IMG/VR virus record: IMGVR_UViG_3300009175_001426
Coordinates: 1-40,019 of that record
Length of the DNA stretch: 40,019 nt
Origin: a virus
Strand: one strand, 5' to 3'
Under the pieces are notes generated by a model that saw only the letters and a program-made list of their open reading frames with translations, was not told the DNA's origin and made no database searches. Positions 20,639-40,019 of this stretch are shown here, one piece after another (the first letter of the stretch is position 1; the number at the start of each line of letters is the position of its first letter). Position numbers and translations under genes: made by a program.

Positions 20639-22099
20639 ATGACACTGCCCAAAGACCTGAAAAAAGAGATCGCCACCATAGGCAATGATCCGACGATCCC
20701 AGCCTATGGCGGCGTCCTGCGCAATCAAGATGACACCCTCATCTCCCGGGGCGGCGGCAAGGGCCTCAAAATCTATGATGAGATCGAGCGCGACTGCCAT
20801 GCCTTTGCCGTGTTGCAGAAGCGTAAGCTGGCCATTATCGCCAGGGAGTGGCAACTGTTGCCCGCCTCATCCAGCGCTCTCGACAAGAAAGCCTGCGACC
20901 TGGTCAAGGAACAACTGCAGAACCTCAAATTCGACCAGGTGTGCCTGAAGATGCTGGACGCGACCCTGAAGGGCTATAGCGTCGGCGAGATCATCTGGAC
21001 AACCGATGGCTCGGAGATCGTGGCGTCAAAGGTCAAGGTCAAACCACAGCGTCGATTCATCTTCGATGAAGATCAGGAGCCGCGCCTGGTTACCCTGACC
21101 AACCTGTGGCCCGGCGAGCCGCTGCCGCTGAGGAAGTTCATCGTCCATCGTTACGGCGAGAAGGATGATGACAACCCCTATGGCCTTGGCCTTGGGTACC
21201 GTCTCTTCTGGCCGGTGTTTTTCAAGCGGCAGGATATCACTTTCTGGCTGACCTTCGTGGATAAGTTCGCCTCGCCGACAGCCATGGGCGAATATCCGAA
21301 CGGCACCAGCGACGCCGATCAAAAGAAGCTGTTGAACTCCTTGTCGGCCATCTCTTCCGAGGCCGGGATCATCGTGCCCCAGGGGATGATGGTCAAGTTT
21401 TTGGAGGCAGCCCGCTCCGGATCCATCGACACCTATGAGCGGCTCGCTCGCTATATGGACGAACAGATCAGCGAGTGCGTGCTGGGCGAAACGCTGTCCA
21501 CCAACATCGGCAACTCCGGCAGCCTGGCTGCGGCCAAAACCCATAATGAGGTTCGGCTAGAGTTGGCCAGGGGCGATTCGGATCTGCTTTCCGACACTAT
21601 CAACGAGACTCTGATCCGCTGGCTTGTGGAACTGAATGTACCCGGTGCCAATCCACCTAAGCTGTGGCGCGATTTTGATGAGGGTGAGGATCTCAAGATC
21701 CGCTCCGACATGGATAAGAATTTGACGGAGATGGGCTTTGAAGCAGCCGAGCAGTACATCAACGAAACCTATGGCGGCAAATGGAAGAAAAATCCGAAGG
21801 CGGTCCCACCGTCGCTGAACTCACCCGACGCTAAGGAACCCGCGCAGTTTGCTGAGACCGCTCCGGATACAGTGGATCTGCTTACAGAGCAGACGCTGGC
21901 CGCTGCCGATGGTGGCGATATTATGGGTGCGGTGTATCTGCTGCTGTCTGATTCCGGCAGTCTAGAGGAAGTGCAGGATAAGCTGATTGATCTCTACGGT
22001 CGCATCTCGGTCGACAAGACTGGCAATGCCCTGGGTAACAGTCTCTTCCAAGCTGACCTGACCGGTCGGGCTCAAGTCCTTGATGAGGTTGGAAAGTGA
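20639..22099 (+). CDS. Portal protein, DUF935 (Mu gp29-like)
   Basis: 486 residues. Recognisable DUF935 pattern: FAVLQKRKLAIIAREWQLLP, DATLKGYSVGEIIW, KFIVHRYGEKDDDNPYGLGL and TAMGEYPNGTSDADQKKLLN, with LGETLSTNIGNSGSLAAAKT later. It forms the dodecameric portal ring at the head vertex for DNA entry and exit. It follows TerL directly and overlaps the MuF start by four bases (GTGA). Confidence 0.95.
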   Translation: MTLPKDLKKEIATIGNDPTIPAYGGVLRNQDDTLISRGGGKGLKIYDEIERDCHAFAVLQKRKLAIIAREWQLLPASSSALDKKACDLVKEQLQNLKFDQVCLKMLDATLKGYSVGEIIWTTDGSEIVASKVKVKPQRRFIFDEDQEPRLVTLTNLWPGEPLPLRKFIVHRYGEKDDDNPYGLGLGYRLFWPVFFKRQDITFWLTFVDKFASPTAMGEYPNGTSDADQKKLLNSLSAISSEAGIIVPQGMMVKFLEAARSGSIDTYERLARYMDEQISECVLGETLSTNIGNSGSLAAAKTHNEVRLELARGDSDLLSDTINETLIRWLVELNVPGANPPKLWRDFDEGEDLKIRSDMDKNLTEMGFEAAEQYINETYGGKWKKNPKAVPPSLNSPDAKEPAQFAETAPDTVDLLTEQTLAAADGGDIMGAVYLLLSDSGSLEEVQDKLIDLYGRISVDKTGNALGNSLFQADLTGRAQVLDEVGK

Positions 22100-23292
22100 C
22101 AGTCGAATACGGCAACCTGCCTTTCAAGGAAGCGGAAAAGTTTTTTCGCGACAAGGTCAACATCCCCACCAAGCGGTGGGATGACCTCAAGGAGGGTATG
22201 CATGCCCGTGGCTTCATGATTGCCGGGGCACAACGTGACGACATGCTTTGCGACTTCCATGGGGCCCTACGCAAGGCGATCGAACAGGGCACCACCCTGG
22301 AGACGTTCCGCCAGGACTTCGACCAGATCGTGAACCGCTACGGCTGGAGTTACAACGGCGGCCAAGGCTGGCGCACCAGGGTGATCTACGACACCAACCT
22401 GCGCACCTCGTATATGGCCGGGCGTTACCAGCAGATGACCGACCCGGACGTACTGGCCTACAACCCGTACTGGCGCTACCGACACAATCATGCCGTCAGG
22501 CCCCGACCGCAACATGTGGCGTGGAACGGACTGACCCTGCGTCATGATGATCCTTTCTGGTCCAGCCACTACCCACCCAACGGCTGGGGCTGACACTGCT
22601 CCGTCGATCCGGTCTCGGATCGAGATATGGAGCGGTTGGGCAAGCGTGGCCCGGATAAGGCCCCGCCCCTGGTCATTGATCCTAAGACCGGTGCGCCGGT
22701 GGGTATTGATAAGGGCTGGGGCTACAACGTTGGCGAGGCGGCCTGGGGCAAGCAGCTGTCAGCAGAGGTGATGAACGATTGGCGGTCCCAGGGTGCGAAG
22801 GCCTGGAACAAATTGACGCCTGGAGATTGGAAGAGCCAGGGTCGCCCGGAACGCATCCCGGGCGATACCACCAAAACGAAGCTCGGCCCTAAACTTATTT
22901 CTACCGAGGAAGCGGCCAAGGCCCTGACCAAGATCATGGGAGATGAGGAGCGGATCTATACGCTGCCCTCCGGTGGTCGGGTGCTGGTGAACGCAGAAAA
23001 CCTGGCAAGCCACATCGATCTGGACCGCACCCCGTTTCTGCCTCTGCTGCCGGAGGTACTGACAGACCCGTATGAGGCGTGGATCTCCTTTGAACAACAC
23101 AAGGGAACCGGCAAGGTAGTACTGCGACAGAGGCTGATCAAGATGCTGCAGCTGGACAAAGAGCGCGGCGTGCTTGTCACGGCGCAGGCGAAGAATGGGG
23201 TGATCGAGGCGTGGACGATGGTTCCGACGTCCGATCGGAAGTATCTGAACAATCAGCGGGCAGGGAAGCTTTTATGGGGAAGGGAAGAATAG
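22096..23292 (+). CDS. MuF head morphogenesis selenoprotein (Sec166) fused to a BECR-type nuclease-like domain
   Basis: Reading through one TGA gives 398 residues. The N-terminal part is a classic Mu F/SPP1 gp7 domain (VIYDTNLRTSYMAGRYQQM, then ALTLRHDDPFW-like WNGLTLRHDDPFW and HYPPNGWG). In the family this is followed by C-x-C; here the codons are TGA-CAC-TGC, so the first Cys becomes Sec (U166), with C168 retained. The frame then runs on with family-like sequence (SVDPVSDRDMERLGKRGPDK) without another stop. Residues about 286-398 resemble the PBECR barnase/EndoU/colicin-like fold (DPYEAWISFEQHKGTGKVVL, then GVIEAWTMVPTSDRKYL). MuF acts in head assembly and as injected cargo. A SECIS-like hairpin follows the TGA. 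Confidence 0.85.
22598..22633 (+). promoter_or_regulatory. Bacterial SECIS-like element directing Sec at TGA 22591-22593
   Basis: Upper stem TCGATCC (22604-22610) and GGATCGA (22617-22623), seven perfect pairs, closes a six-base loop GGUCUC. A lower stem pairs GCTCC (22598-22602) with GGAGC (22629-22633). The loop begins 17 nt after the TGA. E. coli fdhF has the same UGA-CAC start, a GGUCU loop and 18 nt of spacing. A G in the first two loop bases is the known SelB requirement. All pairing is within coding sequence. Confidence 0.85.
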
Positions 23293-39098: not shown

Positions 39099-39214
39099 GG
39101 TCGGGACTGGGAGGAGCGCAAACTCCTCCCGAACTTTCCGACCGTGCTTGAACACGGAAGGAGGCCCGCAGGTTCGACCCGCTATAGTCCCGATGCACGC
39201 TGTGGACAGCGCAT
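39099..39214. other. Highly structured gap: cloverleaf-like set of inverted repeats
   Basis: The 169-base gap holds a closing stem TCGGGAC (39100-39106) / GTCCCGA (39186-39192), extended by one G-T pair. Inside are GGGAGGAG-cgcaaa-CTCCTCCC (39108-39129), CCGTG-cttgaa-CACGG and GCAGG-ttcga-CCCGC. A further hairpin CGCTGT-gg-ACAGCG lies at 39197-39210. The inner layout resembles a tRNA, with GGTTCGA near the 3' side, but D-arm, anticodon loop size and end are wrong. The first hairpin may serve as the late terminator. A promoter for the methylase is expected here but not recognised. Confidence 0.55.
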
Positions 39215-39257
39215 GGGGGTAGTAGCATATCACCTGCATTACCGCAAGGAGCCTTTC

Positions 39258-40019
39258 GTGGCATCACTGATCCCCTATTTTGGCGGCAAGAGCCGCCTGG
39301 CAAAAACCATCCTTTCCAAATTCCCAGAGCACCAATGTTATGTTGAGGTGTTCGCCGGGGCTGCAAACGTTTTCTTTGCTAAAGAACCAAGAGGTTCCGA
39401 GGTCATCAACGATCTTGACCGCGATCTGATCACCTTATATCGCATCGTCAAGCATCATCCCGAAGAACTGCATCGTCAGTTCAAATATGCCCTGGTTGCT
39501 CGTGACGAATTCAACCGGCTCATGCAAGTCAATCCCGATACCTTGACCGATATTCAGCGTGCGGCTCGTTACATCTATCTGCAACGCACTTGCTTTGGTG
39601 GTCGCATCCATGGCCGCACCTTCGGCACTTCTACTACCGGTCTCCCTCGCCTCAATCTGTTCACTCTACAAAAACTTCTGGAAGAGGCATGGATCCGGCT
39701 GGCTCAAGTGATGATAGAGTGCCTCGACTTCAGGGATCTGATTCCCCGATATGATAGGGAGCACACCCTGTTTTTTCTTGATCCGCCGTACTGGAAAATT
39801 GACGGCTATGCGCACAACTTCGTTGAGCAGGATTTTTACGATCTGGCGGAGGTGCTGGCCGGTATCAAAGGAAGGTTTCTAATGACCTTAAATGACACGC
39901 CAGAGGTGAGGGAAATATTCAGTAGATTCTCGATTGAGGAAGTCGAACTGAAGTACTCAATGAGTAAAAAAGTGGGGAGTCGATCGAAGGTGAGAACAGA
40001 GCTTTTAATCAGCAATTAA
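39258..40019 (+). CDS. DNA adenine methylase, D12 class (Dam-like), GTG start
   Basis: 253 residues from the GTG at 39258, chosen for its AAGGAG site and because the protein then begins ASLIPYFGGKSRLAKTIL, the family's AdoMet-binding start. CYVEVFAGAANVFFAKEP follows, then VINDLDRDLITLYRIVKHHP and the catalytic FLDPPYWK. It methylates adenine N6, most likely in GATC or a similar site. It holds the right-end place of Mu mom, so protection of phage DNA against restriction is likely. The upstream frame is open without a good start. Ends at the last base of the window. Confidence 0.92.
   Translation: MASLIPYFGGKSRLAKTILSKFPEHQCYVEVFAGAANVFFAKEPRGSEVINDLDRDLITLYRIVKHHPEELHRQFKYALVARDEFNRLMQVNPDTLTDIQRAARYIYLQRTCFGGRIHGRTFGTSTTGLPRLNLFTLQKLLEEAWIRLAQVMIECLDFRDLIPRYDREHTLFFLDPPYWKIDGYAHNFVEQDFYDLAEVLAGIKGRFLMTLNDTPEVREIFSRFSIEEVELKYSMSKKVGSRSKVRTELLISN

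Follow-up and report, generated by a model that had tools for sequence, protein, structure and literature searches.

The gene that follows the portal gene in a Mu-like phage record is interrupted by an in-frame TGA codon at a position where related minor head (MuF) proteins have a cysteine. This raises the question of whether the codon ends translation, results from error or decay, or is read as an amino acid, and if so, as which one. A first-pass annotation of the same DNA had proposed that the codon is decoded as selenocysteine (Sec166) by the machinery of the host. We examined the gene, its relatives and the genomes of the likely host order, and our analysis makes it very probable that UGA 22591-22593 encodes selenocysteine via host Sec decoding.

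The MuF-PBECR2 gene and its in-frame UGA

The window, i.e. the whole stretch of 40,019 bases that was analyzed, is a Mu-like phage record with transposase- and MuB-like genes, a Mu-type portal and a terminase. The portal gene lies directly upstream of the MuF gene, and its TGA stop overlaps the GTG start of the latter (GTGA). The features of the region are collected in Table 1. The read-through protein scored 60.5 bits against PF04233 (cutoff 29.6), which together with the adjoining portal places it in the MuF (minor head) family, and in PHROGs it was assigned to phrog_220, minor head protein and DNA pilot (E 1.2e-93). An NCBIfam search of the protein gave one minor capsid match, under the cutoff. 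The AlphaFold model (pLDDT 79, pTM 0.56) had no usable match in a fold search of the PDB, and a fold search of a viral library with the same model returned head-morphogenesis proteins. The C-terminal part scored 82.6 bits against PF18810 (PBECR2; cutoff 27.1), and a MuF domain combined with a toxin-like C-terminal domain is the layout of the MuF polymorphic toxins. Nuclease activity of PBECR2 and its delivery into cells are predicted, and, as the gene is laid out, the domain is made only if the UGA is decoded. Neither this predicted nuclease domain behind the UGA nor the wider family of UGA-containing genes described below was part of the first-pass annotation.

Table 1. Features of the portal-MuF region, in window coordinates
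Feature	Position	Strand	Evidence or remark
Mu-type portal gene	20639..22099	+	PF06074, E 1.4e-112 (Pfam); sequence
MuF-PBECR2 gene	22096..23292	+	Single in-frame TGA, frame otherwise open; 398 residues on read-through
Phage_Mu_F domain, residues 55-170, ends at C-x-C motif	22258..22605	+	PF04233, E 3.3e-16
UGA codon, proposed Sec166, first Cys of C-x-C	22591..22593	+	Cys in 127/129 sequences; invariant column
TGC codon, Cys168, second residue of U-H-C	22597..22599	+	Sequence, alignment
SECIS-like hairpin	22598..22633	+	Fold z -3.27; synonymous shuffles; likeness to FdhA elements
Lower stem of hairpin	22598-22603/22628-22633		
Apical stem of hairpin	22604-22610/22617-22623		TCGATCC/GGATCGA
Apical loop of hairpin	22611-22616		GGTCTC, starting 17 nt past the UGA
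PBECR2 predicted RNase-like domain, residues 276-394	22921..23277	+	PF18810, E 3.3e-23

The frame was open apart from this single codon, and the codon stood directly after HYPPNGWG, giving the local motif PPNGWG-U-H-C at the site of the MuF C-x-C, just as the first-pass annotation had described. Alignment with 30 homologues showed that H140, C166 and C168 are invariant and H158 nearly so. The expectation that MuF homologues have Cys at residue 166 was also borne out: in a set of 129 sequences, made up of the window and of relatives retrieved through protein similarity, the codon was TGC in 100, TGT in 27 and TGA in two, namely the window and L002. The latter is an independent record, with 84-91% DNA identity to the window over long aligned blocks and 96% protein identity. 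Another member of the set, L063, had TGA at the second Cys. As is typical of bacterial selenoprotein genes, the UGA thus aligned with a Cys of the homologues, and the frame continued beyond it.

UGA forms among MuF relatives

In total, TGA stood in place of the first Cys, of the second or of both in 35 distinct MuF sequences; UGA-containing homologues in other genomes are likewise expected of a bacterial selenoprotein gene. After removal of duplicates there were 19 U-x-C, 8 C-x-U, 2 U-x-U and 151 C-x-C sequences, and a further 6 TGA forms, with a PPNGF motif, stood beyond these 29. Most TGA forms came from viral contigs scanned by pattern, with a MuF profile as filter. Since such scans select for TGA, the fair sample consisted of loci gathered by protein similarity regardless of stops (166 distinct loci, 48,276 codons). 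All eight in-frame stops in the conserved MuF region of this sample were TGA at C166 or C168, and the other six stops lay outside the region. This position-by-position count replaced a scan for TAA or TAG at the first Cys position, which found no MuF and is a weak control, because a Cys codon must change at two bases to become TAA or TAG.

On the tree of the MuF sequences, U and C must have replaced each other at least 10 times. As read from these genes, the exchange of Cys and Sec has arisen repeatedly, affecting one Cys or the other of C-x-C, or the two together. The MuF genes of three viral contigs (L258, L259 and L260) had UGA at both Cys positions (U-K-U), with one downstream hairpin each. 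Surveys of genomes for TGA-form MuF (49 genomic-contig loci; 28 of 395 phylum genomes with a relative) yielded Cys forms or decayed copies only; L369, a candidate TGA form from the phylum survey, was rejected as a decayed copy.

A SECIS-like hairpin downstream of the UGA

Folding of 22588-22650 (-30.7 kcal/mol; 1 of 200 shuffles as good) reproduced the seven-pair stem, the GGUCUC loop and the lower stem that had been proposed. One more pair extends the apical stem to 8 bp and leaves the loop GTCT. As in bacterial selenoprotein genes, the hairpin lies at SECIS distance and has a G early in its apical loop. Only 0.4% of synonymous-codon shuffles matched the apical stem of the window in stability. 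An Rfam scan of the hairpin region returned matches below the gathering scores only.

To compare the classes, we counted contiguous apical stems that lay 15-30 nt past the UGA and had a G as the first or second loop base. A stem of at least 6 bp was present in 28 of 29 TGA forms versus 16 of 151 Cys forms (Fisher 2e-20), and the mean of the TGA-form set was 11 SD better than that of peptide-preserving synonymous-codon shuffles; the sequences are related, and such p-values therefore overstate independence. TGA forms that keep the stop and lose the hairpin, which would have counted against the selenoprotein proposal, were accordingly rare: of all 35 TGA sequences, L194, L399, L403 and L406 had no 6-bp stem. 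When each locus was compared with its own synonymous shuffles, the advantage of the hairpin was mild apart from a handful of loci, including the window. A looser energy measure, taking the best hairpin of any shape, separated the classes weakly (p 0.013); it was dropped as too permissive in favor of contiguous apical stems in the SECIS range.

The hairpin of L002 has the same stem as that of the window and differs in the loop alone (AGTTTC). Between clades, the sequence and register of the hairpin vary, paired stem replacements of C-G by G-C occur in L192 and L063, and the loop CGUGA recurs in L402, where stem and codon phase are both different. The MuF gene of L267 (3001-4227) has Cys (TGC), yet it retains in full the SECIS-like hairpin seen in its UGA relatives, and it probably represents a recent Sec-to-Cys change. 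In L269, the same peptide with Cys is encoded by other codons, the closing pair is broken, and the loop is changed.

Likely host order and its selenium machinery

L002 is a prophage with bacterial flanks; one flank matched Desulfobulbus-order genomes at 72-74% DNA identity, and the nearest Cys homologues of the MuF protein were in Desulfobulbus and Desulfocapsaceae MAGs. These similarities point to Desulfobulbales as the likely host order, an assignment at the level of the order rather than of the window's own host. Desulfobulbales genomes carry selA, selB, selD and tRNA-Sec, the machinery on which the selenoprotein proposal depends. The window contains no tRNA gene and no selB match, and the phage must therefore use the SelA/B/C/D of its host. 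In the Desulfocapsaceae genome G002, the UGA of the FdhA genes is followed, 18 nt away, by hairpin loops GGTCT, GGGCT or GGTGT. The Desulfobulbia include the largest bacterial selenoproteomes reported in PMC12013277.

In the likely host order, selD itself has a UGA (L412-L415, in G001, G003, G467 and G480), and G002 has two selD copies, one with UGA and one without. To the left of the prophage, the L002 contig contains a second, inverted copy (L343:1759-2427) of a DNA methylase-like gene that the phage carries at its right end (window 39144-40019); the two are approximately 79% identical. The inverted copy adjoins tail-like sequence and is possibly a remnant of another phage.

The frame past the UGA and alternative readings

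One rival reading holds that the TGA arose through a sequencing error, or through a nonsense mutation in the gene of a decaying prophage, and that the hairpin is coincidental. TGA is one base from TGC and TGT, and errors in a Cys codon yield TGA only. However, the independent L002 has the same TGA with synonymous sites differing by 0.3-0.5, and dN/dS between it and the window was 0.016 before the UGA (dS 0.33) and 0.063 after it (dS 0.50); L175-clade pairs gave about 0.10-0.15 after the UGA. By these ratios, purifying selection acts on the codons downstream of the TGA. Stops in the MuF region were confined to C166 and C168, and the hairpins went with the TGA forms, not the Cys forms. The window TGA is not a lone sequencing error, the outcome that would have undone the earlier proposal, because dozens of contigs show TGA followed by a hairpin, and two Cys positions are affected. 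Thus, we give error or decay almost no chance.

A true stop would split the gene into a 165-residue head protein and a C-terminal protein re-initiated at ATG 22627, an in-frame codon 36 nt past the UGA in both the window and L002; PBECR domains also exist as solo proteins (PMC5512222). We consider such a split very unlikely. ATG 22627 lacks a Shine-Dalgarno-like sequence and an in-frame ATG close to the UGA is missing from most other UGA forms, and re-initiation is therefore disfavored. Many UGA forms have 56-107 codons after the motif, short of nuclease length, and a split gene gives no reason for the stop to fall exactly on either motif Cys. It is also conceivable that the UGA is read through in another way, by a suppressor tRNA, by a changed code, or by structure-stimulated insertion of Trp, Cys or another residue. 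Structure-stimulated read-through of stop codons is known in viruses. However, of the 25 other window genes checked, about 10 end normally in TGA, which argues against a changed code, and the homologues have Cys, not Trp, at the site. The loop and its spacing resemble the FdhA elements of the likely host order, in which Sec machinery is present, and read-through of another kind is highly improbable in our judgment. The reading of the UGA as Sec166 is, in contrast, largely supported by the Cys homology, the TGA-specific hairpins and the machinery of the host order.

Proposed mechanism

Selenocysteine decoding would proceed as follows. The mRNA hairpin just 3' of the UGA would recruit host SelB with Sec-tRNA-Sec, and a fraction of the ribosomes would insert Sec166 and complete the MuF-PBECR2 protein, while the remaining ribosomes would release a 165-residue product that ends short of the C-x-C motif and the nuclease-like domain. 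The sequences themselves establish the recoding signature, its recurrence, the selection on the frame downstream and the machinery of the likely host order, whereas we infer that Sec is actually inserted and that the protein is present in virions. The advantage might lie in the higher reactivity of a selenol at a U-x-C redox or metal site, the hosts being anaerobic and rich in selenoproteins; H140, C166 and C168 together with H158 could form a metal site, or U-x-C could act as a redox pair, like that of the UxC thioredoxin-like selenoproteins (PMC9312934). MuF proteins are low-copy (SPP1 gp7, one to two per capsid; PMC5576092), and inefficient Sec decoding may therefore be affordable for the phage. 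The dependence of virions on selenium, which had been suggested earlier, follows only if full-length MuF is needed. A more speculative idea, which we regard as rather unlikely, is that Sec decoding serves as ratio control or as a selenium gate: the virion load of full-length MuF-nuclease would track host selenium and SelB, and phages changing between hosts that use Sec and hosts that do not would shift among U-x-C, C-x-U, U-x-U and C-x-C.

Relation to known systems

The proposed mechanism is standard bacterial Sec decoding in a new, unexpected place. Like bacterial FdhF and FdhA, the phage gene has an in-frame UGA-CAC and a GGUCU-type hairpin loop directly downstream, with a spacing of 17 nt in the phage and 18 nt in Desulfocapsaceae FdhA, but FdhF and FdhA are cellular enzymes with a molybdenum or tungsten site, whereas the phage protein is a minor head protein with a nuclease-like C-terminal domain. 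Sec at either place of an x-spaced Cys pair is also found in the UxC/CxU thioredoxin-like selenoproteins (pfam13192, PMC9312934); these belong to an unrelated family, and the MuF family has both positions, and both at once. With the MuF polymorphic toxins and MuF-PBECR proteins (PMC5576092, PMC5512222), the protein shares a MuF domain, a variable effector-like C-terminal domain and an origin in temperate phages, and phage Mu F itself bears a PBECR domain (same sources). Unlike in the proteins described there, a UGA sits between the head motif and the nuclease-like domain; searches of the text of PMC5576092 and PMC5512222 gave no mention of a recoded stop or of a cysteine motif.

Viruses that use, or may use, selenocysteine have been reported. 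Poxvirus glutathione peroxidases, which are captured host enzymes, use the Sec code (PMC8310308), and for Basilisk-like phages the available portion of PMC6145125 reports a tRNA-Sec gene and names no selenoprotein. As far as these sources go, the present case differs in that the recoded gene is a virion gene and the phage carries no Sec gene of its own. Phage T7 has been adapted under an extended genetic code, according to the available portion of PMC8923235. In the open-licence prokaryotic selenoproteome papers and reviews that were searched, up to May 2026, no phage selenoprotein is described, and text searches gave none either, in agreement with the earlier statement that no phage structural selenoprotein was known. 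If the Sec reading is true, the MuF genes would be, as far as we found, the first family of selenoproteins from phages and the first case of natural Sec in a virion-assembly gene. Virus production would be linked to host selenium metabolism, and host range would be limited to Sec-decoding hosts. The reading would also explain wrongly truncated phage gene calls, and the MuF family would offer a natural experiment on how Sec comes and goes, having several times gained it, lost it or shifted it from one Cys position to the other.

Two further loci, L142 (IMGVR_UViG_2684623112_000002) and L405 (IMGVR_UViG_2523231026_000003), contained UGA-type MuF genes with strong hairpins. Their record names suggest single-genome rather than metagenome sources, which could give culturable hosts.
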